Source of the DNA: an uncultured Pirellulaceae bacterium
GTDB taxonomy: Bacteria; Planctomycetota; Planctomycetia; Pirellulales; Pirellulaceae
DNA: 64,000 bases
Assembly (NCBI GenBank): GCA_937929805.1
Contig: CALFUT010000031.1
Location: 62,001-126,000 of the forward strand
Direction of reading: 5' to 3'
Shown here: one piece after another, positions 39,581-55,938 of the stretch
How the letters are laid out: each line of letters starts with the position of its first letter
How positions within the stretch are numbered: the first letter of the stretch is position 1
Program-made: the position numbers and the translations under genes
Notes under the pieces: generated by a model
The model's input: the letters and a program-made list of their open reading frames with translations, nothing else
Database searches by the model: none
What the model was told of the DNA's origin: nothing

Positions 39581-40857
39581 CGCCGGTCCTCCGATGAAGG
39601 CCGTTCCACCAGAGTCACTTCCACCAGCAAATCGCCCCGTTGAGGCGCATCAATGACCTTCAGCAGTAAGGGCCCCCACTCGCACGAGTCGCCCCTTTTC
39701 GCCAACCGCTGAAGTTCTTCTTGAATCACGCCGCGAACGGTCACGCTGTCAGTTTCAGGAAGCTCGATCTGAAATCGACGCGACAGCTGGCGAAGACTCA
39801 TGATGCCAGCCACTCGCCAACGGTTTGGCTCGACTTCCTCGACAGGCGGTAGGTCCAGCAATCGATTGGCTCGGCTGGGCGAGTAAACGAAAACCGTTTC
39901 CAGAATGTCTTCGATCGTCAAAATTCCAATTGTTTCGCCATGCTCATTGACCACGACCGTTACTTCGCGGTCGCGATAGGTCATCTTCTCCAAGGCGTCG
40001 GCCACCGTGGCACACCACGGAAGATACAGAACCGGCGTTGCCAGTTTTTCAAGATTTCGATCGGGAAGTTCATACTGGTTGTCCAGCCGAATCGCTTTTT
40101 CAATATTATCGCTATCGACTTCAGTGACCAACAAATAGCCACTGGCAGGAATTTTTCTGTTTAGATCCGCAAGATTCACGGGAGGCTGATAATGATTGAA
40201 CTGCGTCCTCGGCCGCATCCATTCCTCGACCAAAATGTTTGACAGTTGAACGACATTTTGAAGCACGGCTTGCTCTTGCCGAATCAAGTTCGGGTCGGCA
40301 CCCGAATGCTCGATCGCTCGCTCAAGATCCGAAACGTCGATTTCAGCTTCCGCTTCAAAGCCGGGCCAGATCAGTCGCGTTGAAATTAAGTTAATCGACT
40401 GCAACAACGGCATGATGGGATCCACCAATCGCACTGCCAAAGACAAGGGAAAGCTAACCGTCTGAGCCAGCAGCGCCGGTTTGAGCACGGCAAAACTTTT
40501 TGGCAACATCTCGCTGAACAAGATGATCGCCAGCAACGAGGCCACCGCAAACCCAACCGCAGCAGACTGACCGAACGCAGCGTTTCGCTCAATCTGGATC
40601 GCGCAAATTGAGCTGATAGAAAAGTAGGCGATATTGATCACCAAATTCCAGAACAGCACCGCCGAAAGCAGACGCTCGGGCGTCTCCAGCAACGCTGCTG
40701 CCATTCGCTGTGCCGGATTGCCTGACGCGAGGACTCGCCGGTCCCTTGGTTGCAGAAAAAACAGGGCTGCTTCGCTGGCGGAAAAGAACGCGGAACAAAC
40801 CAGCAGCACCGCCATGGTCACCAACCAAGGCAACAACATCGGAAGCAAGTCATCCAT
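39577..40857 (-). CDS. HlyC/CorC family CNNM transporter
   Basis: 426 residues. DUF21 (about 1-190) has ACSAFFSASEAALFFLQPRD and FSEMLPKSFAVLKP. CBS domains follow (EEWMRPRTQFNHYQPP; VVNEHGETIGILTIEDILE), then the CorC_HlyC domain near the end with RWRVAGIMSLRQL. The complete domain set suggests a Mg2+/Co2+ efflux protein. It overlaps the preceding ABC permease gene by 8 bp and the next CNNM gene by 4 bp. Confidence 0.9.
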   Translation of the reverse strand: MDDLLPMLLPWLVTMAVLLVCSAFFSASEAALFFLQPRDRRVLASGNPAQRMAAALLETPERLLSAVLFWNLVINIAYFSISSICAIQIERNAAFGQSAAVGFAVASLLAIILFSEMLPKSFAVLKPALLAQTVSFPLSLAVRLVDPIMPLLQSINLISTRLIWPGFEAEAEIDVSDLERAIEHSGADPNLIRQEQAVLQNVVQLSNILVEEWMRPRTQFNHYQPPVNLADLNRKIPASGYLLVTEVDSDNIEKAIRLDNQYELPDRNLEKLATPVLYLPWCATVADALEKMTYRDREVTVVVNEHGETIGILTIEDILETVFVYSPSRANRLLDLPPVEEVEPNRWRVAGIMSLRQLSRRFQIELPETDSVTVRGVIQEELQRLAKRGDSCEWGPLLLKVIDAPQRGDLLVEVTLVERPSSEDRR

Positions 40858-42823
40858 TTTGCGTCGCTTTGGACTGCCCGGAGTAAACCAAGAATTCGCT
40901 CAATCGCGGAATCACGATCGCCGTCGTGGCAAATCCATACGCGAACGTGACCGCCAGCAGCGCACCGAGATAGCGTTCCAGCAACAGACTGGTGATGCAA
41001 TAGAACATCGTGATCGGTAACACCAGCGATGCCAACGCTAAAGCGGACGACTGCATGTTCCAACCGAGCGCAACGTACAATCCGATCGCTCCACCAACGA
41101 TGCAAGCCAAAAACGGAGCTAATTGCGCTTCCACATTTCCTGTGAACGAGACCATCATGACCATGCTGGTCACAACCCCCAAGAACAAAAAGAAAACCGT
41201 TCCTAGGCTGACTGCAATCGCTTGTCGGCTGGTGGCGTTGGACATTCCCGCATGAATCCCTAGTGCAGAAACGAACAACCCAATGACAGAAAAACCAATG
41301 CCCAAATAAACAAGGTTCTCAAGCGAAACGACTCGGTGGAACCACAAATACACACACATCAATAACGGTAGCAGCAACATGTCCAGCGACACGAACAAGA
41401 TCCCCAGCCACTTGCCAAACAGAAACTCAGTGGGAGAAATATCGGTCACTCGCAGTAGATCTAACGCTCGTCCATCTCGTTCGGAAGTGATCGAGGTCAC
41501 CGCCAACGCATTAACCATGACTAGGCTGACGAACATCAAAGGAGCCAATGGCTTGGCAATGGCCGGGATTTTGACTCCTTCGTCCAGCGTCGTCCGAGTC
41601 GCAGCGCCCGAATCGACCATCGACCATAGAGCCACGAAAACGGCGATCGCCATCAACCAATAAACGGCTCGAATAAACAAGATCTTGCGACCGTAGGCCC
41701 AAGTGCAGGTTTCCCGCCATAAAACCGGGTTGTCCCAGACACGCCGACTATTCTGACCGACTTTTCGTGACCGATCATCGATATGGGTTCCGCCGACCAT
41801 CGCGCGGCCAACGATTTTTGGGTCGTCAGTCGCATTATCTTCCAGTGAGACTTTGCCGGTGAAAACGTCGACTCCCTGAGTTGCCTCAACCTGCTGTCCA
41901 AGCCGAACCTCCCGATTCGGGTTCCAGCGACGGACTCGAACGATCGCAATCGCGGACAGTAAAACCGAAACCGCGCCGGCAACGATCAGAAACGGAGCGA
42001 CCGTTTGCGGCCAAGTAGAGTGAATGGTCGAGTCACAGGCGGCCAGCACGGCTCGCAATGGATTGGTCGCCGAGGCAATCTGATTTCCAGTAAATCCCGC
42101 AACGCCTTGGCCGGTGAGACCAACGCCCTCAAAGAAGCCAATCCAGATCACGATGGCCAGCAGAACCAACGCCAGCGTTTGAAATGTTTTCTCTCGCCAT
42201 AACGCGATGGTGGCACCAAGGGCTCCAGCAGCAATCGCGGCGGCAATGGTAACGGCAAACGTCCAACCGACTTGCTCAAACGAGGTGCCTCCAAACAAAA
42301 CGATCAGCATGAAGATCGGCAGGCTGGTCAACAGCATCACGCCAATGTTCAACAGACTGGCGAACAGTTTTCCTAGGACCAGCTCGCTATTGGTCAAACG
42401 ACTCATCAGCAACAGGATCAACGTCTGACGATCCTTCTCGATCGCGATGTTGCTGGCCGATTGGACGGCAGACAAAAACATGATCAATGCCAGTTGCAAC
42501 GGAGCCAGAATTTGGAACAACACGGTTCCAAACCGAGCCATGTCTCCAACGTTTCGAATCTGCTGCGTTCCCGCCAAGATCATCCACAACGTGCAAGTAA
42601 TCAGCAATAGAAACAGACCGTAGACGGTCCTCATCACGTAATGTCGCACTCGGCGCGGGGCGACGGCTGCTTCGCGAGAAAATACTGGACCAATGAGCAC
42701 GGTTGGAGCGATACAAAAAAAGAAACGGAAACTCTGCCACCTATTATGACTGGGCCCGGTCGGACGTTCCACCGGTAAGGCGGAAGGCCAGATGAAACCT
42801 ATTTGTGGATGCCGCTGAAACAT
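40850..42823 (-). CDS. Large ABC-2-type transporter permease
   Basis: 657 residues with about twelve transmembrane helices in two similar halves. Each half has an exporter-type motif, SNIAIEKDRQTLILLLMSRL in the first and SITSERDGRALDLLRVTDIS in the second, followed by the GK-(W/L)-hydrophobic segment (LGKLFASL, FGKWLGIL). These E-(K/R)-(D/E)-x-LL-x-S/T segments are the coupling helices of ABC-2 permeases. No ATPase gene is adjacent. The first 60 residues before VFSREAAVAPRR may not be translated. The two CNNM genes follow with overlaps. Confidence 0.85.
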   Translation of the reverse strand: MFQRHPQIGFIWPSALPVERPTGPSHNRWQSFRFFFCIAPTVLIGPVFSREAAVAPRRVRHYVMRTVYGLFLLLITCTLWMILAGTQQIRNVGDMARFGTVLFQILAPLQLALIMFLSAVQSASNIAIEKDRQTLILLLMSRLTNSELVLGKLFASLLNIGVMLLTSLPIFMLIVLFGGTSFEQVGWTFAVTIAAAIAAGALGATIALWREKTFQTLALVLLAIVIWIGFFEGVGLTGQGVAGFTGNQIASATNPLRAVLAACDSTIHSTWPQTVAPFLIVAGAVSVLLSAIAIVRVRRWNPNREVRLGQQVEATQGVDVFTGKVSLEDNATDDPKIVGRAMVGGTHIDDRSRKVGQNSRRVWDNPVLWRETCTWAYGRKILFIRAVYWLMAIAVFVALWSMVDSGAATRTTLDEGVKIPAIAKPLAPLMFVSLVMVNALAVTSITSERDGRALDLLRVTDISPTEFLFGKWLGILFVSLDMLLLPLLMCVYLWFHRVVSLENLVYLGIGFSVIGLFVSALGIHAGMSNATSRQAIAVSLGTVFFLFLGVVTSMVMMVSFTGNVEAQLAPFLACIVGGAIGLYVALGWNMQSSALALASLVLPITMFYCITSLLLERYLGALLAVTFAYGFATTAIVIPRLSEFLVYSGQSKATQNG

Positions 42824-43142
42824 TGACGCATTCTATCTGCACGCGGGCATATTCCATTTCGCGTCTAATCTAAAGGCTTTTAGTCGATAACTTCAGGCCG
42901 CAAGATCGTTACGAGCCTGACAGGTCACGGGTTCTGTCGGATCGATTATATTGGAGCGTCTGTTTGCGGGACAATCTGACGCTGGCGGACGATAAAGCGT
43001 GGGTGGCGGCGACGTCGGCCACGGACGAACAGTTTCAAAGTTCGATCAATCCGATCGCTGGTCACCAACCTATCTAACGCAACCTCATTCCTGTCCAACC
43101 CTCCCTGCAGAAAACGCCAAACGGCGCCACGATAAACCGCTT
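42824..43142. other. 319 bp spacer between divergent permease and GTPase genes
   Basis: Contains divergent promoters by position. An in-frame extension of the GTPase gene back to 42999 is open but begins GGGDVGHGR, which does not look like the family, so I treat it as non-coding. No repeat or hairpin with T-run seen. Confidence 0.4.
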
Positions 43143-44696
43143 ATGAAACTTGGCAAAACATTTTCGGGTCTGATGATCGTCGTACTGGCGGCCGCAATCG
43201 GAATGGCACTGATCTACCTGCCAAACTTGATCATCAGCAACTACGTTGTCGTGACAGGACTTGGCGGCATTTGGGCAACACTGTACCTAGTCGCGATCGG
43301 ACTGGGAGTATTGCTGCTACTGGCCAGTGCAGGGTGGACAGTCTGGAAGATGTGGGGCGCTTCGATTACGAAAAGCCGCCGGCGCGCCCGCCGCAACCTA
43401 AATCCGAGCGAACTTTCATCGGGCCAACGCGATCGGGAGATCGAAGAAAACATCGACGAGGTTGAACGCCTTCGTGCCGAGGCGCTCAATGAGGAAGGGT
43501 TGCAATCCGAACTTGATCCATTGTTGCACGAGATTGAAGCCAAGCGTGAACAGCAAACGCTTGAGATCGTCGCGTTTGGGACGATCAGTAGCGGGAAGTC
43601 GTCTGTCTTGAACTTATTGGCCGGTCGAGACGTTTTCAAGACGGATGTGCGCGGTGGAACGACGGTGACGCGAAACGAAATCCCGTGGAGCGGAATGGAC
43701 AAAGTGACTCTGGTCGACACGCCCGGCATTGGTGAAGTCGATGGCGAAGTTCACGTTAGCGTGGCCGCGGAGTCGGCACTCGACGCGGACATCGTGTTGG
43801 TCGTCGTCGACGGGCCGCTTCGCGAAAGTGAGCATGAGTTAATCGAGCGTCTTGGGCAGATGGAGAAACGAGTCCTAATCTGTTTGAACAAAGCGGATTG
43901 GTATTCGTCGGACGATCAAGACAAGCTAACCAATCAAATTTCGGGGCAAACCGCTGGCATTGTGAAGCCGGTTGACGTCGTGGTCATTCAAGCTCAAGAA
44001 GGATCCCGGATTCGCAAGAAAATTTTGGCCGACGGAACCGAAAAAGAAGAAACGGTCGTCATCGAGGCGGACATCGATCCGCTGGCCGAACGCCTGATTG
44101 AAACGGTCAAGCGTGATGGCAAGGAACTGCTGATGGCCAACGTGCTACTTCGCTCGCGCGGGCTGGTCGAAAAGGCTCGCGCACGAGTGAAAGATTCGCT
44201 CGATCGACAGTCGTGGAACATTGTTGATAAATACATGTGGGGCGCGGGTGGCGTTGCCGCGCTCAGCCCATTTCCCGTGGTTGATCTGCTGGCGGGGTCC
44301 GCGATCTCGACCAAGATGATTCTGGACCTTGCGGAGGTGTATCAACAGAAGGTTGATTTAAACACCGCGTCGAAGTGGCTGGGTGAAATGGGCAAAAACC
44401 TGATCGGCGTACTGGGGGCTCAAGGAGCCGCCGTCGCAACCAGCGCCGTCGTGGCCTCGCTGATCAAAACGATTCCCTTTGCAGGGACCGTTGCGGGAGG
44501 TGTCCTCCAAGGTGCCGTTCAAGCGTTGATCACCAAATGGATTGGTGCGGTGTTCATCGAATACTTCCGCGACGAAATGCAAACACCCGAGGGTGGTCTG
44601 GCCGGGCTGGCACGACGACAATGGGAAGCCGTGACGACCGTCGACGAATTGCGTAAACTGGTTCAGACCGCACGCGGTAAACTGGCCGACGACTAA
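43143..44696 (+). CDS. Membrane GTPase, YcjF/DUF697-like, first of pair
   Basis: 517 residues from the ATG at 43143. Two N-terminal transmembrane helices (about 10-32 and 43-65) and a basic/coiled segment (80-140) precede a GTPase domain: G1 GTISSGKSS (146-154), G2 Thr in GGTTVTRNE, G3 DTPG (192-195), G4 NKAD (249-252). A DUF697-like tail follows with small hydrophobic and glycine-rich helices (SPFPVVDLLAGSAISTKMIL, IKTIPFAGTVAGGVLQG). The second GTPase gene starts 6 bp after the stop. A dynamin-like or Era-like membrane role is inferred. Confidence 0.85.
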   Translation: MKLGKTFSGLMIVVLAAAIGMALIYLPNLIISNYVVVTGLGGIWATLYLVAIGLGVLLLLASAGWTVWKMWGASITKSRRRARRNLNPSELSSGQRDREIEENIDEVERLRAEALNEEGLQSELDPLLHEIEAKREQQTLEIVAFGTISSGKSSVLNLLAGRDVFKTDVRGGTTVTRNEIPWSGMDKVTLVDTPGIGEVDGEVHVSVAAESALDADIVLVVVDGPLRESEHELIERLGQMEKRVLICLNKADWYSSDDQDKLTNQISGQTAGIVKPVDVVVIQAQEGSRIRKKILADGTEKEETVVIEADIDPLAERLIETVKRDGKELLMANVLLRSRGLVEKARARVKDSLDRQSWNIVDKYMWGAGGVAALSPFPVVDLLAGSAISTKMILDLAEVYQQKVDLNTASKWLGEMGKNLIGVLGAQGAAVATSAVVASLIKTIPFAGTVAGGVLQGAVQALITKWIGAVFIEYFRDEMQTPEGGLAGLARRQWEAVTTVDELRKLVQTARGKLADD

Positions 44697-44702
44697 CAAG
44701 CT

Positions 44703-46061
44703 ATGGAATCATTACCCGTGAACGAAACTTCGTCCGCTTCGTCGGTTGACGACCCTCATTACCGCGACGCCGTAAAAGCCGTCGAGGAGACTCTGGCCAA
44801 ACTACAAGGTTGCCCCGAAGCCGAGCGTGATCGGCTGCAATCGGACATCGATCAATTGAACTCGATGTACGAAAAGATCACCAGCGGCAGCATCGAAATT
44901 GTCATCTTTGGTGAGATCAGCACCGGCAAATCCGCGATGGTCAACGCGCTCATCGGACGCGCCGTCGCCGAAGTCGATGTGCAAGGCGGTTGGACCAAAC
45001 AAATCTGGGGCACTCAATGGGAAGGCTCTGGGCACCGGATTGCGGGCCTTGAATCTTCCGAAGTCGTGATCGTTGACACGCCCGGCATCAATGAAGTCGA
45101 CGGAGCCGATCGAGCCGAGCTGGCTGAAATTACTGCTCGACGAGCCGACCTAATTCTATTCGTGACCGATTCAGACTTGAACGAGATCGAATACGCGGCG
45201 TTGGTCGAGCTGGTCGCCGTTCAAAAACCGATCATCCTTGTGTTCAACAAAACGGATCTGTATCCGCAAGACGAACGTGAAAAATTGGTCGCCATGCTGA
45301 CCGAACGAATCAAGGACATCATCCCGGCCGACCACTTGGTGCTGACTTGCGCCGATCCTCGCGAAGTCGAGTACGTGATCGAGCAACCCGATGGTTCCGA
45401 AGTGACTGAGTGGCGAAAGCCCGATCCGGATATCGAACAACTGAAAACGTTGATCCTTGAGACATTGGAAAACGAAGGCTTGGGCCTGATCGCGCTCAAC
45501 GCCGCGATGTATGCCGCCGACAAAAGCGATCGCATCGCTGCACTGCGCATCGAAATGAGAAACCGGCAAGCCGATCACGTGATCTGGACGATGGCCGCCA
45601 CCAAGGCGATGGTCGTGGCGCTTAATGTCGTTCCGGTGCTGGACGTCGTGGGCGGTTTCGCAGTCGACGCGTTGATGATCGTGACGCTTTCCAAAGTCTA
45701 TGGCTTGAATTTTTCGATGACTCAAGCACGCGGGCTGGCCAAGTCCATCGGCGCGGCGGGGGGGATTTATGCCTTGGGTGAATTGACCAACTACGGAGCC
45801 AGTTTATTCAAGGCACTCACGGTCACGTTCGGCACCGCGCTGACGATCATTCCTCAGGGAGCCGCCGCAGGATTCACGTCTTACATTATCGGTCAGGCAG
45901 CCAAGAAATACTTCGAGCAAGGCGGATCGTGGGGCAATGGATCGGCCAAGTCGGTCGTGTCCGAAATTCTCGCGCAGACCGATAAAGATTCGGTGGTCGA
46001 TCACTTAAAAGAAGAGATCCGCGCGAAGCTAATCTGGAATCGACACGCGGACCAATCTTGA
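44703..46061 (+). CDS. GTPase with DUF697-like tail, second of pair
   Basis: 452 residues. An N-terminal helical arm (15-60) leads into G1 GEISTGKSA (70-78), G3 DTPG (125-128) and G4 NKTD (182-185). The C-terminal half repeats the pattern of its neighbour, with hydrophobic helices (VVPVLDVVGGFAVDALMI, GAAGGIYALGELT, IIPQGAAAGFTSYIIGQAAK). Unlike the first GTPase it has no N-terminal transmembrane helices. The two are paralogues and likely partners. The next gene begins 1 bp after the stop. Confidence 0.85.
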   Translation: MESLPVNETSSASSVDDPHYRDAVKAVEETLAKLQGCPEAERDRLQSDIDQLNSMYEKITSGSIEIVIFGEISTGKSAMVNALIGRAVAEVDVQGGWTKQIWGTQWEGSGHRIAGLESSEVVIVDTPGINEVDGADRAELAEITARRADLILFVTDSDLNEIEYAALVELVAVQKPIILVFNKTDLYPQDEREKLVAMLTERIKDIIPADHLVLTCADPREVEYVIEQPDGSEVTEWRKPDPDIEQLKTLILETLENEGLGLIALNAAMYAADKSDRIAALRIEMRNRQADHVIWTMAATKAMVVALNVVPVLDVVGGFAVDALMIVTLSKVYGLNFSMTQARGLAKSIGAAGGIYALGELTNYGASLFKALTVTFGTALTIIPQGAAAGFTSYIIGQAAKKYFEQGGSWGNGSAKSVVSEILAQTDKDSVVDHLKEEIRAKLIWNRHADQS

Positions 46062-46062
46062 A

Positions 46063-46533
46063 ATGAGCGATAAAAAATCCATCCTGTTCGTCTGCTTAGG
46101 GAACATCTGTCGCTCGCCCACCGGCGATGGCGTGATGCAACACTTGGTGGAAGAGCGTGGCCTCGAATCGCAAGTTGAAATCGACTCGGCCGGCACGATC
46201 GGCTACCACACCGGCCACGCAGCCGACGACCGGATGCAGGCGGCCGCAAGGAAGCGAGGGTACGATCTGACCAGCCGATCGCGAAAGATCACACCGCGCG
46301 ATCTTGAGACGTTCGATCTGGTGATCGCGATGGACCGCGAAAATTATCAGGACATTCAGCACGTGCATGAATCGCCAACCGCCACAGTCAAATTGCTTAG
46401 CGACTGGCTGGGTGACGAGTGGCCCAGCGACGTGCCGGATCCCTATTATGGCGGAGCCGAAGGGTTCGAGTACGTGCTGGACATGATCGAAGCCGCGTGT
46501 CCGTTGATCTTGGACGAATTGGTCAGCCAATAA
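46063..46533 (+). CDS. Low-molecular-weight protein tyrosine phosphatase
   Basis: 156 residues. The P-loop is VCLGNICRSP near residue 8 (C-x5-R-S), and the acid loop is DPYYGG near 125. It is full length with the nucleophilic Cys and general-acid Asp. Family members remove phosphate from phosphotyrosine, and LMW-PTP-A type enzymes are also known to act on ribulosamine 5-phosphates on glycated proteins. The next gene on this strand is a fructosamine-kinase homologue, which points to the second role. Confidence 0.93.
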   Translation: MSDKKSILFVCLGNICRSPTGDGVMQHLVEERGLESQVEIDSAGTIGYHTGHAADDRMQAAARKRGYDLTSRSRKITPRDLETFDLVIAMDRENYQDIQHVHESPTATVKLLSDWLGDEWPSDVPDPYYGGAEGFEYVLDMIEAACPLILDELVSQ

Positions 46534-46534
46534 T

Positions 46535-46604
46535 TTGACAGAATGAACAAGATCAACATGATTTGGTACAGAACATCCTGTTCATCATGCAAATCCTGTC
46601 AAAA
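46535..46604. repeat. Dispersed inverted repeat family H, copy 1
   Basis: TTGACAGAATGAACAAGATC at one end and TCATGCAAATCCTGTCAAAA at the other form the arms around AACATGATTTGGTACAGAAC. A related element lies at 49663-49720 (GACATGATCAACAGGAT to ATGTTCATCTTGTCAAAA). It separates the phosphatase and kinase genes. Confidence 0.75.
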
Positions 46605-46628
46605 GAAGTGGCCTTGCCGCTCTCTGTG

Positions 46629-47531
46629 ATGCACAACCTCGAACTCCTTTCTTCGGTAGCGCGACAAATAAATAGCGTTACGGGTGAGTCCATCGCGGCT
46701 GAATCCTGTCGATCCGTTTCGGGTGGGTGCATCAATGATGCTTGGATTGTCTCGGCGGCCAGCGGAGCCAATTACTTCGTTAAGTTCAATCGCGACGCAC
46801 CCGCCGCCATGTTCTCCGCTGAAGCGGACGGTTTGAACTCGATGCGAGCAACCGGCGCAATCCGAGTGCCGGAAGTGATCACGTTCGGGGAACTCGATTC
46901 GGGAGGCTCGTTTCTGGTACTCGATTCAATCCAAACTGGCAGCCGCAGCAACCAACCCCGCGACTATTTCGAAACCTTTGGCCGAAGCCTTGCCGAAATG
47001 CATCGCCTTGGAACGAGCGAACGCTTTGGCTTCGAATCAGACAACTGGCTCGGCTCTAGCGTGCAGCTTAATCCGTGGATAGACGATTGGAGCAAGTTCT
47101 GGATTGAGGCTCGGCTGATCCCGCAGTTGAAAATGGCTCGCGACACGGGGCACTCCGACCAGCGACTTCAAACACTTGGGGATCGACTGATCAATCGGAT
47201 CGGTCAAATTTTTGGAACCGACGCCAAGCCGCCTGCTCTGATTCACGGGGACTTGTGGAGCGGAAATTATCTGGCAGATGAAAACGGCAAACCGGCGATC
47301 TTCGATCCAGCGTGCTATTACGCGAATCGTGAAGCGGAATTCGGGATGACAAAACTATTTGGTGGTTTCCCGCAGGCGTTTTACGATGCCTATCACGAGG
47401 CGTGGCCACTGTCTGAGGGCTGGGAAACGCGAGTGGAACTCTATACGCTTTATCATCTGCTCAATCATCTAAACTTGTTCGGCCGCAGCTATCTTGGCAG
47501 TTGTTTGGACATACTCGAAAGGCACACGTGA
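46629..47531 (+). CDS. Fructosamine/ketosamine kinase family protein
   Basis: 300 residues from the ATG at 46629. The open frame extends back to 46563 but that part is repeat H. Motifs are VSGGCINDAWIV and NYFVKFN near the start (ATP site), LIHGDLWSGN (catalytic Asp) and FDPACYYANREAEFGMTKLF (metal Asp), the Fructosamin_kin signature. Bacterial members phosphorylate ribulosamines and erythrulosamines on glycated proteins. The partner phosphatase lies 95 bp upstream. The stop overlaps the next start by one base (TGATG). Confidence 0.92.
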   Translation: MHNLELLSSVARQINSVTGESIAAESCRSVSGGCINDAWIVSAASGANYFVKFNRDAPAAMFSAEADGLNSMRATGAIRVPEVITFGELDSGGSFLVLDSIQTGSRSNQPRDYFETFGRSLAEMHRLGTSERFGFESDNWLGSSVQLNPWIDDWSKFWIEARLIPQLKMARDTGHSDQRLQTLGDRLINRIGQIFGTDAKPPALIHGDLWSGNYLADENGKPAIFDPACYYANREAEFGMTKLFGGFPQAFYDAYHEAWPLSEGWETRVELYTLYHLLNHLNLFGRSYLGSCLDILERHT

Positions 47532-48727
47532 TGAATGCTCGATCCTTTTTTTGGTCATTGGTTCTGGTTGGCACGTTGACAATCGCGGCGGGCAATCCGG
47601 CAGGGGCTCAGGTTCCCGCACATGACTCAACCGATACGGTTCGGTTCGCCTCGTTCAACGTCGCAATGAATCGTCGCAACACGGGTGACTTGAAAAAGGA
47701 ACTGATCAGTGGCGAATCGCCCAAGACCCAGAAAATTGCAGAGATCATCCAACGAGTTCGTCCTGACGTGCTGTTGATCAACGAGTTCGATTACGACGAG
47801 GCGGGCGAGGGACTGAAAGCGTTTCAGGAAAAGTTTCTTGGTGTTTCCCAAAACGATCAGAAGCCGATCGAGTACCCGCACGTTCGGGCATGGCCTGTCA
47901 ACACTGGCGAGGACAGCGGCATCGACTTAAACCTAGACGGCAAACATCGGTTGCCGCGAGACGGTTTCGGCTTCGGTTATTTTCCCGGCCAGTACGCCAT
48001 GGCTGTCCTTTCGAAGTATCCGATTGACGAGGCGAAGACACGGACCTTCCAGAAGTTTTTGTGGAAGGACATGCCCGATGCGAAACTTCCAATCGACCCC
48101 GCTTCGAAAGAATCTTACTATCCCAAACACGTAATGGAGGTCTTTCGACTTTCGTCAAAGAACCACGTCGATGTCCCAATTTCCGTCGGTGACAAAACGA
48201 TCCATTTCCTTATCTCTCATCCGACACCGCCGGTGTTTGACGGCAAAGAAGATTCCAATGGCTGCCGAAACCATGATGAAATCCGGTTGTTCGCCGATTA
48301 TGTTTCTGGAAAAGCCGACTACCTTTACGACGACGCGGGAAACAAAGGCGGTTTGCCTGACGGCTCGCATTTTGTGATCGCGGGTGATCTAAACGCCGAC
48401 CCGCTGGACGGCGCATCGCGTGACAATGCAGCACGTTTACTGACCGAAAACCCGCTGATCAACGACACCAAGCCAAGCAGCGAAGGTGGCACTCACTATG
48501 CCAAGGAGCAAGGCCAAGCGAATACGGATCACCAAGGTGATCCCTCCAACGACACGGGGGATTTTGGAGACAAAGACGTCGGCAACATGCGGATCGACTA
48601 TTGCCTGCCCTCAAAAAACTTAACTGTTTCCGGCACAGGTGTGTTCTGGCCCAAGCCTGATCAACCGGGCGGCGATTTGGTTGAAGCATCCGATCATCGA
48701 CTGATTTGGGTTGATTTGAAGAAGTAA
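47531..48727 (+). CDS. Secreted endonuclease/exonuclease/phosphatase family protein
   Basis: 398 residues from the ATG at 47531, sharing one base with the preceding stop. The signal peptide (about 1-25) ends in GAQ. EEP motifs are FASFNVAMNR (Asn), LLINEFDYDEAG (Glu), HFLISHPTPPVFDG (His), FVIAGDLNADPLDG (Asp/Asn) and EASDHRLIWVDL at the C-terminus. It is an exported phosphoesterase of unknown substrate. A short duplicate of its last eleven or so codons lies downstream at 48839-48886. Confidence 0.88.
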   Translation: MNARSFFWSLVLVGTLTIAAGNPAGAQVPAHDSTDTVRFASFNVAMNRRNTGDLKKELISGESPKTQKIAEIIQRVRPDVLLINEFDYDEAGEGLKAFQEKFLGVSQNDQKPIEYPHVRAWPVNTGEDSGIDLNLDGKHRLPRDGFGFGYFPGQYAMAVLSKYPIDEAKTRTFQKFLWKDMPDAKLPIDPASKESYYPKHVMEVFRLSSKNHVDVPISVGDKTIHFLISHPTPPVFDGKEDSNGCRNHDEIRLFADYVSGKADYLYDDAGNKGGLPDGSHFVIAGDLNADPLDGASRDNAARLLTENPLINDTKPSSEGGTHYAKEQGQANTDHQGDPSNDTGDFGDKDVGNMRIDYCLPSKNLTVSGTGVFWPKPDQPGGDLVEASDHRLIWVDLKK

Positions 48728-48753
48728 ACTGGCCCTAGATTCCGCAGTTCTCC

Positions 48754-48831
48754 AGCCACCAATTTTCACCGATCGCCACGGATGTCCTTAGCGCCATCTG
48801 TGAAAATCCGTGCTCATCGGTGGCTAAAAAA
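48754..48831 (+). repeat. Dispersed repeat family G, copy 1
   Basis: CACGGATGTCCTTAGCGCCA, then TCTGTGAAAATCCGTGCTCA and TCGGTGGCTAAAA. The outer words AGCCACC and GGTGGCT pair. The copy at 49564-49630 shares the CACGGATGTCCT, TCTGTGAAAATCCGTGCTCA and GGCTAAAA words in the same orientation. Confidence 0.85.
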
Positions 48832-48838
48832 TCGTGCT

Positions 48839-48886
48839 TGGATGCGCCCCAATCACCGTTTAGTTTGGGTGGATTTGCAGAAATAG
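48839..48886 (+). pseudogene. C-terminal remnant of a duplicated EEP nuclease gene
   Basis: In one plus frame the sequence reads NHRLVWVDLQK then stop at 48884-48886. The complete EEP gene ends DHRLIWVDLKK then stop at 48727. DNA shared by the two ends includes TTTGGGT-GATTTG-AGAA. Repeat G copy 1 lies between the gene and the remnant, so a tandem copy appears to have been deleted or overwritten. Confidence 0.6.
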
Positions 48887-48981
48887 AGCAAGGTTTTGCT
48901 CGTTCTGTGCCGTTCTTAGACGCTATAATGTACAGGTTGCCGTGACGCGGGTTACTAAATGAATACTATTAGAATTTCGAC

Positions 48982-49563
48982 ATGTCTTCCGTACCTAAAA
49001 CTCTGCTGACACCCGAGCAGTATCTGCACCGTGACCGGGAAGCGGATTTCAAGAGCGAGTTCTATCGTGGCGAAATGTTCGCCATGGCTGGAGCATCCGC
49101 CAAGCACAACTTGATTGTGCTCAACTGCGGCGCGGTTCTTCGTGAGCAACTGAAGCAACGCCCTTGCCTCGTCTATCCAAGCGACCTGCGCGTACAAGTT
49201 CAAGCGACAGGTTTGTTTACTTACCCTGACCTCTCAATCGTCTGCGACGATCCTCAATTTGAGTACGATCAAGGCGATGTGCTTGTAAACCCAAATGTCA
49301 TTGTCGAAGTTCTATCGGAATCCACCGAAGCGTACGACCGAGGCAAAAAGTTCGAGCACTACCGGCAGATTCCGTCGCTCAACCACTACGTTTTGATTTC
49401 TCAGGATCGTCATTCGGTAGAAGTTTTCACTCGCACCGGCGAAGGTGAATGGACTTTGCGTGCCGAGCAATCGCCTGACGCATCGGTTGAACTGGCTGCT
49501 ATCGAGTGCTCGCTGCCACTGGCGGAAGTCTACGACAAGGTTAATTTGGAATCTAAAGAGTAG
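48982..49563 (+). CDS. Uma2-family endonuclease-like protein
   Basis: 193 residues. The Uma2 (DUF820) restriction-endonuclease-like core is clear: FKSEFYRGEMFAMAGAS, LVYPSDLRVQ, YPDLSIVCDDPQ, then VIVEVLSESTEAYDRGKKFE and HYRQIPSLNHYVLI. Its PD-(D/E)xK-type residues are the Asp of PDLSI and the Glu/Lys of VEVLSEST. Members are often scattered in mobile or repeat-rich DNA and their function is not established. Copies of repeat G lie on both sides (48754 and 49564). Confidence 0.9.
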   Translation: MSSVPKTLLTPEQYLHRDREADFKSEFYRGEMFAMAGASAKHNLIVLNCGAVLREQLKQRPCLVYPSDLRVQVQATGLFTYPDLSIVCDDPQFEYDQGDVLVNPNVIVEVLSESTEAYDRGKKFEHYRQIPSLNHYVLISQDRHSVEVFTRTGEGEWTLRAEQSPDASVELAAIECSLPLAEVYDKVNLESKE

Positions 49564-49630
49564 CTCACCGGATAAACACGGATGTCCTGATCGCTATCTG
49601 TGAAAATCCGTGCTCATCCGTGGCTAAAAT
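49564..49630 (+). repeat. Dispersed repeat family G, copy 2
   Basis: ACACGGATGTCCTGATCGCT, TCTGTGAAAATCCGTGCTCA and TCCGTGGCTAAAA in the same order and orientation as 48754-48831. It begins directly after the Uma2 stop. Confidence 0.85.
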
Positions 49631-49662
49631 TCACGTCGCGATTCGTTAGCCGTCAGTGCTCG

Positions 49663-49720
49663 CGACATGATCAACAGGATGCCGCGCGCAAATCATGTCC
49701 ATCATGTTCATCTTGTCAAA
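49663..49720. repeat. Dispersed inverted repeat family H, copy 2
   Basis: GCGACATGATCAACAGGATG and AATCATGTCCATCATGTTC plus ATCTTGTCAAAA form the imperfect arms. It lies between the Uma2 gene and the convergent dnaE2 and matches 46535-46604 in layout. Confidence 0.7.
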
Positions 49721-49726
49721 ACCAGC

Positions 49727-52700
49727 TTACCGAAAATTTCTTGACTTGAGTTTCAGCCGGCCGACCGTATCCGATAAATCCTCGATGCGATTGATTAACA
49801 CATGAGTCACATTGCTGCGGCGTTCAAGTTTTCCATGCGCGATCCAAGCCGAGCTTCGTTGAGTGATTTTGTAGTAACGTTCGCGAATGGATGGTTTGAC
49901 CACCAGATTCGCCGATCCGGTTTCGTCTTCCAAAGTCACAAACATGATGCCCTTGGCCGTCGCCGGGCGTTGCCGCAACGTCACCAAGCCCGCGACTCGT
50001 AAGTGCTGACCATCACGGCGGTTTTCCAGCTGGTCGATCGGAGTGACTCGAAGTTCATCCAAGTGCTCGCGATGAAAAGAAATCGGATGTGCCTTTAGCG
50101 ACAAACCCACCGTGCGATAATCCTCGAACACCTGCTCCTGCATCGGCAGTTCCGGCAGCAAATTCGCTTGATCGTCTGCCACTTCAAGATTGGCAAACAA
50201 TGGTTGATCGAGCGGCCGTTTCTCTTGTGCCAACGCCTGCCACAACGCGGCTCGTCGATCCTGCCCAACTGAGGCAAACGCGTCCGCCTCGCTCAGCAAC
50301 GAAATGGTCGCTTGGCCTAGCTCGGTTCGACGCGTGAAATCAACAATGCTCTCAAAACAACCGGCTCGCCGAGCGTCCATAATCGCCTGAGCGTACGGCT
50401 GCCTGAGCCCGCCAATCAACCGCATGCCCAGCCGAATCGCCAGCGAATCTTCGGCAGCCTCCAACGTGCTGTCCCAATCGCTGCGGTTCACGTCGGGCGG
50501 AAGAACGGTCACGCCATGCTCTTTCGCGTCGGCGACCAGTTGAGCCGGAGTGTAAAAACCCATCGGCTGGCTATTGAGAACCGCCACGCAAAACGCAGCC
50601 GGATAATGACACTTCATCCACGAGGAAACGTAAGCTAGATGAGCAAAGCTGGCGGCGTGAGACTCGGGGAATCCATACTCGCCAAAGCCGCGAATCTGAT
50701 GAAACACTTGGTCGGCAAACTCTTGATTCAAACCCCGCGCTTTCATGCCCTCGTAAAGTTTGTGCCGAAATTTTTCGATCGTCCCCGACTTTCGCCATGC
50801 CCCCATCGCTCGCCGAAGCTGATCAGCTTCCCCCGGAGTAAAACCGGCCGCCACCACCGCCAACTTCATTGCTTGCTCTTGAAAAATTGGTACGCCCATC
50901 GTTCGCTCCAACACTGCGCGGATTTCGTCGTTGGGATAGTTCGGTTTGAGTTCACCATTGCGGCTACGCAAAAACGGATGCACCATGTTTCCTTGAATCG
51001 GACCGGGGCGCACGATCGCGACTTGAATCACTAGGTCGTACCATGTGCGTGGCTTAAGCCGAGGCAACATGCTCATCTGGGCACGGCTTTCAATCTGAAA
51101 CACGCCCACCGTGTCAGCCTTGCAGATCATGTCATAGACCAACGGATCTTCTTTTGGCACGGTTGCTAGATCAAACTTCTGATCGTGATGATCTTCGATC
51201 AAGTGAAAACCTTTCCGCAGCGCGGTCAGCATGCCTAGGCACAAACAGTCGACTTTCAGCAGCCCCATTTCCTCAAGATCATTCTTGTCCCACTGGATCA
51301 CAGTTCGATCTTCCATCGCCGCGTTCTCGATCGGAACCAATTCGTCAAGGCGACCTTCGGTCATCACCATCCCGCCCACGTGCTGAGACAAATGACGAGG
51401 AAACCCGACCAGCTCATGAGTCAAATGCAGCAATTGCTGGCCGATGGCGGATTCCGGATCGACTCCAGATTCCGGCATTCGTTCTTTCAGCTTGCAGTCG
51501 TCTTTGAATGACTCGGAATACCAAACGCTGACCGTTTTCGCCAACGCGTCGACTCGATCAAGCGATAACCCCAACGCTTTGCCAACATCGCGGACGGCAC
51601 TGCGAGAACGATACGTCACCACCGTCGCGGCTAGACCGGCCCGATGCCGACCATACTTTTCGTACAAGTACTGAAGCACCTCTTCGCGCCGTTCGTGCTC
51701 GAAATCAACATCGATGTCGGGAGCCTCGTCGCGTTCCTTGCTGATGAAACGCTCGAACAGCAAGTCTGTCGTGTCCGGATCGACCGCCGTCACGCCCAAG
51801 CAATAACAAACGGCCGAGTTCGCTGCGGATCCCCGCCCTTGGCACAGAATGTCGCGACTTCGAGCGTATCGAACTAAGTCCCAAACAGTCAAAAAGTAGG
51901 CCTCGTACCGCAATTCGTCGATCAGTTTCAGTTCGTGTTCAATCTGATGCTTCACTTTCGCCGAGACACCATTTGGGTAACGCTGGCGAGCTCCTTCCCA
52001 CGTCAATTTGGTCAGGTATTCGAGCGGCGTCTGATCGGCCGACGCAAACTCGCGAGGGTATTCGTATCGCAACTCGCTAAGACAGAACGAACAGCGATCG
52101 GCGACTTCACGCGTTCGTTCAATCGCTTCCGGAAAGTCCTTAAACACGGTTTGATAGTGAGGAATCGTTTTCAGATGCCGTTGCGCGTTTGGCAATAACA
52201 AATCACCGGCGGCAATGACATTCGTTTTGTGCTTGGTGGCGGTCAACACATCGTGCAGCGGCATTCGAGCGGCCGAGTGATACAGCACATCACCGGCGGC
52301 CAGCATTGGCAGGCCCGTTTGTTGTGAAAGTTGAGCCAATTGCTGCAACCGCCACGCATCGTCAACTCCTTGGTAAAGCGACGCCAACAAGTACGCGCGA
52401 TCGCCGAAAACATCCCGCCAGTCGTGCAGGTTATGTTTCCAGCCAGAGCCCGGCGTTCTTGATCGGTCTCCCGGCAGGTGCGGAATGGCTCCGGCCAGCA
52501 GACCCTCCGAAAATTCAACGACATCTTCAAACCGTATCCGGCATTCGCCTTTGGCTGCTCGTTTTCGACCGACGGTTAGCAGACGCGAAAGCCGTCCGTA
52601 CGCTTTACGGTCACTCGCCCACAAAACAATCGGCGGCGCGTCTTCTGGTATTACCTCAGCGCCGATGATCAGTTTCAGGTCTGTTTTTCGAGCCGCACCG

Positions 52701-52849
52701 AACGCTTTGACGACGCCGGCCAGCGTGTTTTCATCCGTGATCGCCAGCGCGTGGTACCCCAGTTCAATCGCGCGAGTCACCAGCTCGTCCGCGTGCGATG
52801 CCCCGGACAGAAAAGAGAAGTTCGTTTTGCAATGAAGTTCGGAAAACAT
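49727..52849 (-). CDS. dnaE2: Error-prone DNA polymerase III alpha subunit
   Basis: 1040 residues, the length of DnaE2 rather than DnaE1. A PHP domain opens the protein (FSELHCKTNFSFLSGASHA). The catalytic polymerase core shows CQGRGSAANSAVCYCLGV and EAPDIDVDFEHERREE with the metal-binding aspartates, then the thumb/fingers blocks QWDKNDLEEMGLLKVDCLCL and FQESAM-like FQEQAMKLAV. An OB domain (LRVAGLVTLRQRPATAKGIM) closes it. It works with ImuA and ImuB in translesion synthesis. A repeat of about 80 bp separates it from imuB on the same strand. Confidence 0.95.
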   Translation of the reverse strand: MFSELHCKTNFSFLSGASHADELVTRAIELGYHALAITDENTLAGVVKAFGAARKTDLKLIIGAEVIPEDAPPIVLWASDRKAYGRLSRLLTVGRKRAAKGECRIRFEDVVEFSEGLLAGAIPHLPGDRSRTPGSGWKHNLHDWRDVFGDRAYLLASLYQGVDDAWRLQQLAQLSQQTGLPMLAAGDVLYHSAARMPLHDVLTATKHKTNVIAAGDLLLPNAQRHLKTIPHYQTVFKDFPEAIERTREVADRCSFCLSELRYEYPREFASADQTPLEYLTKLTWEGARQRYPNGVSAKVKHQIEHELKLIDELRYEAYFLTVWDLVRYARSRDILCQGRGSAANSAVCYCLGVTAVDPDTTDLLFERFISKERDEAPDIDVDFEHERREEVLQYLYEKYGRHRAGLAATVVTYRSRSAVRDVGKALGLSLDRVDALAKTVSVWYSESFKDDCKLKERMPESGVDPESAIGQQLLHLTHELVGFPRHLSQHVGGMVMTEGRLDELVPIENAAMEDRTVIQWDKNDLEEMGLLKVDCLCLGMLTALRKGFHLIEDHHDQKFDLATVPKEDPLVYDMICKADTVGVFQIESRAQMSMLPRLKPRTWYDLVIQVAIVRPGPIQGNMVHPFLRSRNGELKPNYPNDEIRAVLERTMGVPIFQEQAMKLAVVAAGFTPGEADQLRRAMGAWRKSGTIEKFRHKLYEGMKARGLNQEFADQVFHQIRGFGEYGFPESHAASFAHLAYVSSWMKCHYPAAFCVAVLNSQPMGFYTPAQLVADAKEHGVTVLPPDVNRSDWDSTLEAAEDSLAIRLGMRLIGGLRQPYAQAIMDARRAGCFESIVDFTRRTELGQATISLLSEADAFASVGQDRRAALWQALAQEKRPLDQPLFANLEVADDQANLLPELPMQEQVFEDYRTVGLSLKAHPISFHREHLDELRVTPIDQLENRRDGQHLRVAGLVTLRQRPATAKGIMFVTLEDETGSANLVVKPSIRERYYKITQRSSAWIAHGKLERRSNVTHVLINRIEDLSDTVGRLKLKSRNFR

Positions 52850-52861
52850 AAAGAATCAATG

Positions 52862-52936
52862 AGGAGTGCGGAATGCGGAATGTGGAATGCGGAGTACAGA
52901 AAAAATTCCGCATTCCCCATTCCGAATTCCGCATTG
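52862..52936. repeat. GCGGAAT-type inverted repeat between imuB and dnaE2
   Basis: AGTGCGGAATGCGGAATGTG and GAATGCGGAGTAC on one side, ATTCCGCATTCCCCATTCCG and AATTCCGCATTGC on the other. The 6-8 bp words repeat in tandem within each arm. It lies in the transcribed gap between the two genes. Confidence 0.75.
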
Positions 52937-52938
52937 CT

Positions 52939-54792
52939 TCAAAACTCTCCCTGCACAAACCATTTTCGTTTGCGCAAGTCACGGAAGACCCAAAAATGAT
53001 TCCCGCCTTCCGTTTCGACGCGCCAATAGTCGCGGCAGGTGGTGCGACCACGCCACCACCCCGTTTCGATTCGCTCCGGGCCCCAAGTGCGAGTCACTTT
53101 TTCCGGCGACGTTGATACCAAAGCACCATCGGCCGCCGAAACGGCGGGCTCGTAAACCAGCAGGGCAGGGGGGCGGGAAATACTCGTGCCGGGAAACGAT
53201 TCGTCGGCTGAAAGCGTTGAATAGATTCGCAGTTCTCGCGGTGGGTGAAACAATCGCAATGGACGAGCAAACAAATGCGAATGTTTTTTGGCAGAAATCG
53301 AGCGACGCTGACGCACCTCCACCAGCGGCCTCAAACGAAACGAGTACTCGGGCTGAGCGTTCGCTTGCAGGCTGGCGCACACCACGTTGCTGGCTCCCAT
53401 CCGACTGGTTAGCCGATTGACCAACGCCGTCATCGCTTGCGGATCGGCGTGTGGATTTTCGTCAAACAAACGACGTTGGTGCTGAGCCAACAGGGCACTG
53501 GATGCGACCTCGACCGTGATGTCTTGAATGTCGATGCTCATCGTGCGAATTACTTGTACGGAAGAGGTTGGTGTGAGGTGTTCGGTGTTCGGTGCGAGGT
53601 TTTTAGAATTCGATAAGTTCGGCCTTCGATTACGAACTCGCTTTTTACGCGACCGCAAGGTATGCGGCTGCAGGGCTTGCTCAAGATGCATCGACAACAG
53701 CGGCAGGACGTCCGCAGGAGTCGCCGTCGCGCAAAACAAACGGATCGTGAACTCGATCGATTCGCCTTCGACCTGATCGAGCACAAATCGCCACTGCAAA
53801 GCACCTCGCTGGCAGGATCGCAACTGCTGACAAAGATCCTGCACCAGACGCACGGCAATCGTTTCGATCGTTTCGCGATGACGAGTCGGAAAGTCCAACG
53901 ATTGATGAAGTTGAAATTCGGGCGGCAGCCGACGAGCGATCACGGGATCGTCAACAATCCCGTTCAACTGGTCCAATCGTAAACCGATCGCGTGTCCGAA
54001 TCGCATCGCCAGCTCGGCACGAGGCAATCGTTCCAGCTGACCGACTGTGCGAATACCTAACTGGTCAAGTGTGCCAAGTATTTCGGTCGGCAATCGCAAC
54101 GATTCGATCGGCAAGCCAGTCATTGCATTCTGACTTTGCTCAGACGGTAACACGTGAGGAGATTTCTGATCCCCGTATCGAGCCAACGCCCAAGCCAAGC
54201 TAGACGTGCGGGCAATCGCGATGCTCACTAGGTAACCGGCCTGCTGACAATGAGCGGCCGCCAATTCTGCCAGCCGCTGTTCATCGCCAAACAAATGAGC
54301 CAACCCGGTCACGTCCATGAAGATGCTCTCTGGCGAGTTCTTTTTTTCTGACCAGAGCTCATCAAACGATTCAATGCCAACGATCGGGCTGTAGCTTTCG
54401 AGCGAATCGGCCAGCGTCTCCAACGCAGCACGATCTTCGTCTGGTTGGTGTGGTAGGAAATGACTGGGACTGGAAGGCCCAGCCACGACGCAATTGGGGC
54501 TGGAAGCCCCCGCCAAGACGTGACTGGGTCTTCCAGCCCCAGCCTTCCCCTCAGTTTCATTTTTTCCGTAAGCTCTGGCTCTCCTCACCAGCAAGGATTT
54601 TGCTTCCACCAACGGCATCGCAACCGACACGCCGGCACGCATTGCCAGCGGACTGGCGGCCGCAACCAATTGGCCTCGCCGGGCGTCGCGTTCAACTAAA
54701 ACAACCTGCTGCTTTCGCAGTTCAGGCTGGCTGACGACTCGCCGCTGGATTGGCCAATTGGGGAACCACAGGCAAGCGATTCGTTGACTCAT
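52939..54792 (-). CDS. imuB: ImuB-like Y-family DNA polymerase homologue with two in-frame insertions
   Basis: 617 residues, longer than the usual 450-550. The N-terminus RIACLWFPNWPIQRR is typical ImuB. Y-family catalytic acids are not obvious, as expected for the non-catalytic ImuB. VSIAIARTSSLAWALARYGD, PTEILGTLDQLGIRTVGQLE and LPRAELAMRFG are the family blocks (HhH region). The C-terminus (DYWRVETEGGNHFWVFRDLR) is the usual ImuB end. About 38 residues near 79-117 and a short stretch near 397-408 are low-complexity and correspond to repeat DNA. The gene overlaps imuA by 71 bp. Confidence 0.9.
   Translation of the reverse strand: MSQRIACLWFPNWPIQRRVVSQPELRKQQVVLVERDARRGQLVAAASPLAMRAGVSVAMPLVEAKSLLVRRARAYGKNETEGKAGAGRPSHVLAGASSPNCVVAGPSSPSHFLPHQPDEDRAALETLADSLESYSPIVGIESFDELWSEKKNSPESIFMDVTGLAHLFGDEQRLAELAAAHCQQAGYLVSIAIARTSSLAWALARYGDQKSPHVLPSEQSQNAMTGLPIESLRLPTEILGTLDQLGIRTVGQLERLPRAELAMRFGHAIGLRLDQLNGIVDDPVIARRLPPEFQLHQSLDFPTRHRETIETIAVRLVQDLCQQLRSCQRGALQWRFVLDQVEGESIEFTIRLFCATATPADVLPLLSMHLEQALQPHTLRSRKKRVRNRRPNLSNSKNLAPNTEHLTPTSSVQVIRTMSIDIQDITVEVASSALLAQHQRRLFDENPHADPQAMTALVNRLTSRMGASNVVCASLQANAQPEYSFRLRPLVEVRQRRSISAKKHSHLFARPLRLFHPPRELRIYSTLSADESFPGTSISRPPALLVYEPAVSAADGALVSTSPEKVTRTWGPERIETGWWRGRTTCRDYWRVETEGGNHFWVFRDLRKRKWFVQGEF
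53571..53600. repeat. GTGTTCGGTG-type repeat embedded in imuB
   Basis: GTGTGAGGTGTTCGGTGTTC followed by GGTGCGAGGT is a tandem of a 7-8 bp word. In imuB it encodes APNTEHLTPT near residue 400. Such TGTTCGGTGTTCGG-like strings are normally found between genes in planctomycetes, from general knowledge. Confidence 0.6.
54452..54545. repeat. CTGGAAG/CCCAGCC repeat block embedded in imuB
   Basis: Three near copies of GACTGGG-CTGGAAG-CCCAGCC, such as GACTGGGACTGGAAGGCCCA, TTGGGGCTGGAAGCCCCCG and GACTGGGTCTTCCAGCCCCA, each partly self-complementary. They encode Gly/Ser/Pro-rich residues about 83-111 with the word SSPN/SSPS repeated, which looks like an insertion. Confidence 0.65.
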
Positions 54793-55549: not shown

Positions 55550-55938
55550 CGCCTGTCCCTGGTGCTTTGTCACACCTTAATTTTTGGGTTGCCCGGTAAT
55601 CGTTAGCATTGTGATCAAATAGTTTTTGCTGAAGGCCAACCCAAATTTTTAGTAGTCACAAAGCACTGGTGAATCCCTGAAACGTCTGTCGGCCTAGTTT
55701 GCAGACGCTCTGGACACCTCTGGTCCCACAAAACCAGAAAAATGAAACAATGTTCATTAGTGTACGCATATACATTTAATTCCTCACAACCCAACATGCA
55801 AGCAACTGCACAGAAAATGGCTGGAATCGTTAGAAATCAACGATTCCACAAGAGAAACAGCTTCCGGCGCGAGCAGGAAGATTCGGGACAGCACAACGGC
55901 GGCGGTGGAAAAGCTGTCAAGAAGACAGTGGCTGGGGC
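55550..55938. other. 390 bp spacer upstream of imuA, probable promoter region
   Basis: Located between imuA and the HNH gene, both on the minus strand. It is AT-rich in parts (55735-55795) and contains two candidate operator palindromes. No gene recognised. Confidence 0.45.
55741..55758. promoter_or_regulatory. Candidate operator (palindrome AATGAA-N6-TTCATT) upstream of imuA
   Basis: AATGAAACAATGTTCATT has perfect 6 bp arms. A further imperfect palindrome TGTACGCATATACA lies 5 bp after it. They lie about 190 bp upstream of imuA, where a damage-response (LexA-like) operator would be expected. Neither matches the E. coli or B. subtilis LexA box, so this is only a candidate. Confidence 0.3.

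Follow-up and report, generated by a model that had tools for sequence, protein, structure and literature searches.

Two neighboring genes in a 64,000-nucleotide stretch of DNA from an uncultured Pirellulaceae bacterium (contig CALFUT010000031.1, positions 62,001 to 126,000; hereafter the window) encode intact, paralogous GTPases with a DUF697 domain, one anchored in the membrane and the other not. We refer to these genes as A and B. The conserved unit is A+B; we are highly confident in the pairing of the two genes, which we read as an obligate pair descended from an old duplication. As to what the pair does, we lean, by a small measure, towards a model of a heterotypic, dynamin-like GTPase system on the inner side of the cytoplasmic membrane, in which A and B would be two obligate subunits and DUF697 the membrane-active part. 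DUF697 GTPases, slr1306 and bacterial dynamin pairs are already known, and DUF697 has no function assigned in Pfam. We found no description of an A+B pair in the searched literature on DUF697 GTPases, slr1306, YcjX/YcjF, dynamin pairs and planctomycete dynamins, a search outside of which most subscription papers lay, and the accessible portion of PMC10104851 mentions neither slr1306 nor DUF697. The host genome is a 4.2 Mb draft in which the window lies within contig C31, and the nearest named relatives of the A locus belong to uncultured Pirellulaceae and Mariniblastus metagenome-assembled genomes (MAGs).

Gene A (43143..44696, plus strand) was delimited by open reading frame translation, Pfam and family alignment, and encodes a protein of 517 residues. 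A GTG at 42999 is a possible start for the reading frame; the family alignment begins at the ATG at 43143. By Kyte-Doolittle hydropathy, A opens with a hydrophobic hairpin (43179..43325; about residues 13-31 and 43-61), behind which comes a strongly basic stretch. Its GTPase domain carries the G1/P-loop GTISSGKS (43578..43601), the G3 motif DTPG (43716..43727) and the G4 motif NKAD (43887..43898), and its DUF697 domain spans residues 337-491 (44151..44615; 93.2 bits in Pfam, where the gathering cut-off for PF05128 is 27.7). Six base pairs further on lies gene B (44703..46061, plus strand; reading frame translation and Pfam), whose 452-residue product lacks N-terminal membrane helices. Its motifs are GEISTGKS (44910..44933), DTPG (45075..45086) and NKTD (45246..45257), followed by a DUF697 domain at residues 270-427 (45510..45983; 98.3 bits). 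The initial annotation had described two adjacent DUF697-like GTPases, 6 bp apart, with parallel G1, G3 and G4 motifs and a membrane anchor in only one of them, and all of this holds.

Both proteins have a Ras-like G domain, score above the Pfam cut-off for MMR_HSR1 and match Dynamin_N (46.9 bits for A and 48.1 for B; cut-off 27). They are 30% identical to one another over 371 residues, and a profile alignment pairs them over 391 columns with a probability of 100. In their own genome, A and B are the only DUF697 matches, and Dynamin_N finds nothing beyond the two except a single 476-codon frame on contig C70. Their adjacency is not a chance observation, given that the genome holds no other DUF697 match and that many related genomes have the pair too. 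The motifs (GxxxxGKS, DxxG and NKxD) are intact in both window proteins and almost always retained across a varied set of relatives (44 A and 44 B), in which the patterns missed G1 in two A rows, G3 in one A row, G4 in one A and four B rows, and G2 in one B row. Within this set each protein has its own signatures, GGTT, DTPG[LI][GA]E and a G4 that is mostly NKxDW[YF] in A, and GGWT, DTPG[IL]NE and a G4 that is mostly NKxDLY in B. The suggestion that A and B differ mainly by the N-terminal helices of A is thus only partly right: the helices do occur in A alone, but fixed subfamily signatures differ as well.

The asymmetry in membrane anchoring held in every row scored. Using Kyte-Doolittle calls on the same set of relatives, we found at least two hydrophobic segments ahead of the P-loop in 42 of 42 scored A rows (the other two of the 44 have no recognizable P-loop pattern and were left unscored), and no such segment in any of the 44 B rows. 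By the positive-inside rule, the A hairpin would have both of its ends in the cytoplasm.

We surveyed three genome samples for the pair: 60 relatives, the host genome included; 296 genomes of the order Pirellulales; and a 294-genome sample of the phylum. Judged by DUF697 score and frame length, 36 of the 60 relatives encode both A and B; some DUF697 match occurs in 45, and the matches beyond those 36 genomes are of a different kind. Among the Pirellulales genomes, 73 had a match at E<=1e-15, with B recognized by its score band with the A model. Seventy-two of these have one A-type protein (580-880 bits) and at least one B-type protein, and the remaining genome (G517, 76% complete) has a B fragment that begins at base 5 of its contig. 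Where both models were applied the separation was clean: A scored 580-787 bits against at most 207, and B 546-732 bits against at most 217. A stop fell within the matched stretch of A in one of the surveyed genomes (G448) and of B in three (G542, G475 and G509). In the phylum sample, strong full-length matches to the slr1306 profile occurred in four of 294 genomes, the host's included, each with two neighboring matches, and one of the four (G278) belongs to another class; matches of any strength occurred in 133, those beyond the four being weak. The pair therefore recurs well outside the genome in which the initial annotation noticed it. Plasmid searches returned only distant partial matches, in 31 records in one search (29% over 42% of B among the matches listed) and in a single record in a second.

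Linkage of the two genes was examined at named A loci, the best 80 of 132 that passed. B lies downstream on the same strand in 73 of them, at a gap of -4 in 15 loci, of at most 100 in 64, and of more than 215 in two. The wide gap at one locus, L107, reflects a break in A itself; there, A is split into two frames in the MAG (L107:4515-6062), by a frameshift or an assembly error. Of the seven loci without B downstream, three end less than 300 bases from A, and in five (L095, L102, L109, L136 and L138) B was found elsewhere in the genome. The cultured relative Blastopirellula marina carries A and B as well (locus L120).

Both genes have been kept even where they have come apart. In G059, G374 and G444 they share a contig with at least 60 kb between them, and L109 (genome G408), L102 and L138 have no B within the 6.9 kb or more that follow A. 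In the tree, which does not include G444, G059 and G374 are sisters, and L102, L109 and L138 branch apart from them, two of the three beside linked relatives. Provided that the draft assemblies are correct, we count at least four separations after which both genes were retained. A and B each form one side of a branch, with support of 98 and 99 in the Shimodaira-Hasegawa-like approximate likelihood ratio test and with G278 and the Phycisphaeraceae loci included, in a tree made by a quick method whose very long outgroup rows leave the root unsure. The distance matrices of A and B correlate at r=0.835 over 43 pairs (the maximum of 2000 permutations was 0.285), a value much of which shared species descent alone would yield, and A and B have the same nearest neighbor in 21 of the 43.

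Predicted structures of the two proteins were compared with solved ones. The B model (45 rows; predicted local distance difference test score, pLDDT, of 80.2) runs from N-terminal helices through the G domain, a beta hairpin and a 63-residue helix into the DUF697 helices, and the A half of a fused model follows this order too, preceded by the membrane helices. Foldseek searches with the fused model placed Der-type GTPases, immunity-related GTPases (IRGs), a mitofusin, IniA and LeoA near the top, and matches to the B model included the Campylobacter jejuni dynamin pair 5owv, BDLP, mitofusins and IRGs. In VIA-align, the B model aligned with Fzo1 at Z 17.9 (253 residues, root-mean-square deviation (rmsd) 5.2, model residues 10-288) and with Mfn1 at Z 17.8 (249 residues, rmsd 5.3); the Fzo1 and Mfn1 rows overall cover 249-255 residues at rmsd 5.2-5.6, roughly model residues 8-288, and extend from the helices at the N-terminus into the long helix that follows the G domain. 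Because these alignments of a predicted model continue beyond the G domain, they favor the dynamin side. An alignment of A-B that also contained A-only and B-only rows was discarded, its A-only rows, 26-34% identical to the window, having probably been aligned to the B half. Linkage, co-occurrence, the tree, anchor asymmetry and structural matches together support the functional two-GTPase unit with one anchored subunit that the initial annotation had envisaged.

The bacterial dynamin pairs (Cj-DLP1/Cj-DLP2; also LeoA, IniA and Streptomyces DynA/DynB) are in several respects the closest comparison. Like A and B, they are two paralogous GTPases encoded side by side, with low mutual identity (24% in the C. 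jejuni pair against 30% for A and B), a helix-G domain-helix architecture (predicted for A and B), a Dynamin_N match and the Foldseek matches to 5owv, IniA and LeoA. They differ in that A and B are much shorter, end in a DUF697 domain with no recognized trunk or paddle, and include one protein with an N-terminal membrane hairpin and one that has none in any row scored. The LeoA/HP0731 dynamin-like protein model (NF041922) gave 18.3 bits for A and 24.2 for B, below its cut-off of 325. IRGs and mitofusins likewise have helices on both sides of the G domain, and IRGs ranked high in Foldseek for both models, but the immunity-related GTPase model IIGP (PF05049) scored 20.2 and 13.9 bits, under its cut-off of 24, and the anchor of the A/B pair is N-terminal. 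In Escherichia coli, the YcjX/YcjF system consists of a DUF697 protein whose N-terminus carries membrane helices and, next to it, a second GTPase-like gene. It differs from the present pair in that A and B both carry a GTPase and a DUF697 domain; TIGR01620 (hyp_HI0043 subfamily), which we take to be a YcjF-like model, gave A 19.4 bits against a cut-off of 160 and had no match to B listed, and no YcjX-type family was found among the Pfam matches of B. Of the two parallels first suggested for the pair, the dynamin-like one finds support in the predicted architecture, while the YcjX/YcjF one is loose.

In the available portion of PMC6104087, most bacterial dynamins are described as encoded in side-by-side operon pairs, and the C. 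jejuni pair as needing both subunits for GTP hydrolysis. We therefore propose that an anchored and a soluble subunit assemble heterotypically. A would be held at the inner face of the membrane by its two-helix hairpin, and B would be recruited from the cytoplasm, probably by contact between the two GTPase domains. The helices before the G domain and the long helix after it would be the counterpart of the neck or HD1 of mitofusins and bacterial dynamins, followed in both proteins by the helical, hydrophobic and glycine-rich DUF697 domain. GTP would drive pairing of the A and B G domains, hydrolysis would move the helices, and DUF697 would then pack against or insert into lipid or a membrane client. 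We infer from the comparison a physical A-B complex, a GTP cycle, an action on lipid and a client; membrane remodeling would be the outcome of such a cycle, with control of a membrane client as the alternative.

Several results weigh against this dynamin-like model or against an obligate unit. The Dynamin_N model also matches in 12 of 14 control genomes and is therefore unspecific. Foldseek TM-scores on the query were low (0.26-0.34), and at 452-517 residues the proteins are smaller than classical dynamins. In VIA-align, the G domain alone does not mark a dynamin, since Era, YsxC and other non-dynamin G domains reach an equal Z (about 18) and BDLP and SynDLP superpose badly (rmsd 22-24). DUF697 was matched to no solved structure; the VIA-align rows cover mainly model residues 17-270, so they are uninformative for that domain, and among the matches listed in PDB sequence searches (the best 60 of 86 and the best 60 of 72) none fell on the DUF697 part. 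A read-through fold of A and B built from 17 paired rows (pLDDT 70.8, pTM 0.47) gave no interpretable interface. The pair is also patchy, present in the 73 matching genomes of 296 in its own order, so that it serves no core function, and B was not found in the genomes of two of the 80 loci, L118, where the contig ends, and L145.

Two other accounts take the same genes in different directions. A and B may instead act as a GTPase switch that regulates a membrane transporter or an uptake complex and does not remodel membranes, an account extrapolated from slr1306 that we consider rather unlikely. In Synechocystis, disruption of slr1306, a distant homolog of the two proteins, reportedly impairs inorganic-carbon acquisition. 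The cyanobacterial slr1306 family (NF049994) is the best full-length match of both proteins and spans GTPase and DUF697 domains alike over about 400 residues, but its scores of 183 bits for A and 150.7 for B fall far short of the cut-off of 490. The gene itself appears as a putative component of the CO2-concentrating mechanism in the title of a 2008 paper, as cited in the available portion of PMC5472144. A possible transporter client lies upstream of A, where an ABC-2-type (ATP-binding cassette) permease gene (40850-42823) is divergent from A and reads away from it. Relatives of this gene, likewise upstream and in the same orientation, occur in 17 of the 80 loci, nine of them outside the genus-like group of 24 loci that we defined by identity to A. 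Leaving aside a cassette common across planctomycetes, no neighbor is more frequent, and the permease is the only candidate client we kept. Against the switch, the permease is missing from most flanks (of the 73 loci that extend 3 kb or more before A, 15 have it), runs in the opposite direction and, where its gene is intact, stands 220 to 4765 bp from A. It is thus no fixed partner, and may be either an old neighbor or a client of the GTPases.

The second account would have A and B as subfunctionalized GTPases under common regulation that act as separate homodimers and are co-retained for pathway reasons without a complex, which we regard as improbable. Their deep divergence, at 30% identity, and the fixed but different switch signatures of each clade would fit it, as would motifs intact in both, neither being an inactive partner. 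Overlapping or tight spacing, the near absence of solo genes and the retention of both genes after unlinking nevertheless fit partners of fixed stoichiometry better, and it is the heterotypic, dynamin-like pair that we continue to favor.

The gene that follows B had raised a further possibility. A low-molecular-weight protein-tyrosine-phosphatase (LMW-PTP) family protein of 156 residues (46063..46533, plus strand; LMWPc, 144 bits) begins 1 bp after B, just as the initial annotation had reported, and it had been thought that tyrosine phosphorylation might regulate the GTPases. We now regard a phosphatase within the module as very improbable and have rejected it as a component of the GTPase unit, since it is found near B almost only in close relatives and its class tracks a fructosamine kinase. 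A relative of the phosphatase follows B in 18 of the 73 linked loci, comprising 17 of the 24 genus-like loci and one other (L089). Of the 58 loci that continue for at least 2.5 kb beyond B, 16 have it, and outside the genus-like group one of 39 does. The 1 bp gap, which speaks for membership together with the 17 genus-like occurrences, is shared only by the window and its nearest relative, L067 (A 92% and B 90% identical); the other gaps are 15 bp (L094), 109 bp and 2322 bp at single loci and 493-741 bp at 14.

Distribution across the 60 relatives points the same way. A high-scoring class of LMW-PTP (PF01451; 126-144 bits, the next match scoring 109) is present in 25 of them. A fructosamine kinase is present in 23, all within those 25 (G004 and G009 have the class but no kinase) and in none of the 35 others, whereas A and B occur in 24 of the 25 genomes with the class and also in 12 without it. 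Phosphatase and kinase lie at most 300 nt apart in 19 of the 23; of the rest, they are far apart in G025 and G033 and on different contigs in G010, and in G012 both touch contig ends. In G015, G016 and G035 the phosphatase-kinase pair is on a contig without A or B; the same is true of G003, but its contig with A and B ends 437 bases after B. In the window too, the phosphatase adjoins a fructosamine-3-kinase family gene (46626..47531, plus strand; PF03881, 316 bits), whose start codon is uncertain.

The simplest reading is that phosphatase and kinase are a deglycation gene pair that happens to follow A and B in this genus, and the LMW-PTP is most likely part of a different pathway. Some bacterial fructosamine kinases reportedly stand in an operon with an LMW-PTP that acts as a ribulosamine 5-phosphatase. 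The window phosphatase and the following kinase form such a gene pair, with a probable role in protein deglycation; what differs is its place directly after the GTPases, an arrangement nearly confined to the genus. Many bacterial members of the fructosamine kinase family are ribulosamine/erythrulosamine 3-kinases, going by the title of Gemayel 2007 as cited in PMC13223202. LMW-PTP goes unmentioned in the accessible portions of PMC6539852, PMC7041631 and PMC13223202. Anti-phage defense was another candidate set aside: a PADLOC scan covering A, B and the phosphatase returned LeoA/LeoBC matches over the GTPase part (the best at 53.9 and 46.1 bits, plus weaker ones).

To look for a third partner, neighboring genes were clustered across the 80 named loci, and no gene recurs in most of them. 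In the 56 loci outside the genus-like group, the most common neighbors are a DUF1501 protein (16 loci) and a DUF1549/DUF1553 protein (13), which make up a cassette widespread in planctomycetes. After these and the permease come an extracytoplasmic function (ECF) sigma factor (seven), an unnamed family (six), a second unnamed family (five) and a DUF1559 pseudopilin-like protein (five), and smaller groups of three to four loci include a BatA/VWA-type protein and an alcohol dehydrogenase. L109, L144 and L146 have, upstream of A, genes for a BatA/VWA-type membrane protein and for a large protein of GATase1-like type; L131 has a gene of this second kind upstream of A as well. A scan of window positions 40000-50000 for tRNA genes found none, and a promoter and terminator scan gave nothing decisive.

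Two further observations concern other genes. A second, very different GTPase pair occurs in three genomes of the family or order (L062:9148-11906, L063:9243-12055 and L065:8935-11920), in which a DUF697 GTPase of about 400 residues sits beside a GTPase of 516-662 residues, the two overlapping in L063, where the start is unsure. The larger GTPase of L065 has hydrophobic helices at its start and a weak, sub-threshold match to PspM/Rv2743c, and the pair looks like the same anchored and soluble theme. Further along the window, on the minus strand (49727-55573), lie genes for a 1040-residue DnaE-type polymerase, an ImuB-like protein and a third product. Judged by its sequence, this trio resembles the imuA-imuB-dnaE2 mutagenesis cassette; relatives of these genes occur near the A/B pair in some genomes.

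The result for the phosphatase corrects the guilt by association that annotation from its neighborhood would have led one to expect. For the GTPases themselves, a bolder interpretation, which we put forward tentatively and consider doubtful, is that A and B may represent an undescribed two-subunit dynamin-like class in which DUF697 would be a membrane-active tail and which would shape or repair the unusual inner membranes of planctomycetes. Such a class would give the bacterial dynamin pairs a small and simple relative, and an obligate pair with a fixed anchor asymmetry would offer a clean, testable system. If this is true, a function could be assigned to DUF697, proteins of the slr1306 and YcjF types would belong to further branches of this machinery, and slr1306, YcjF and the planctomycete proteins would be joined in one frame.

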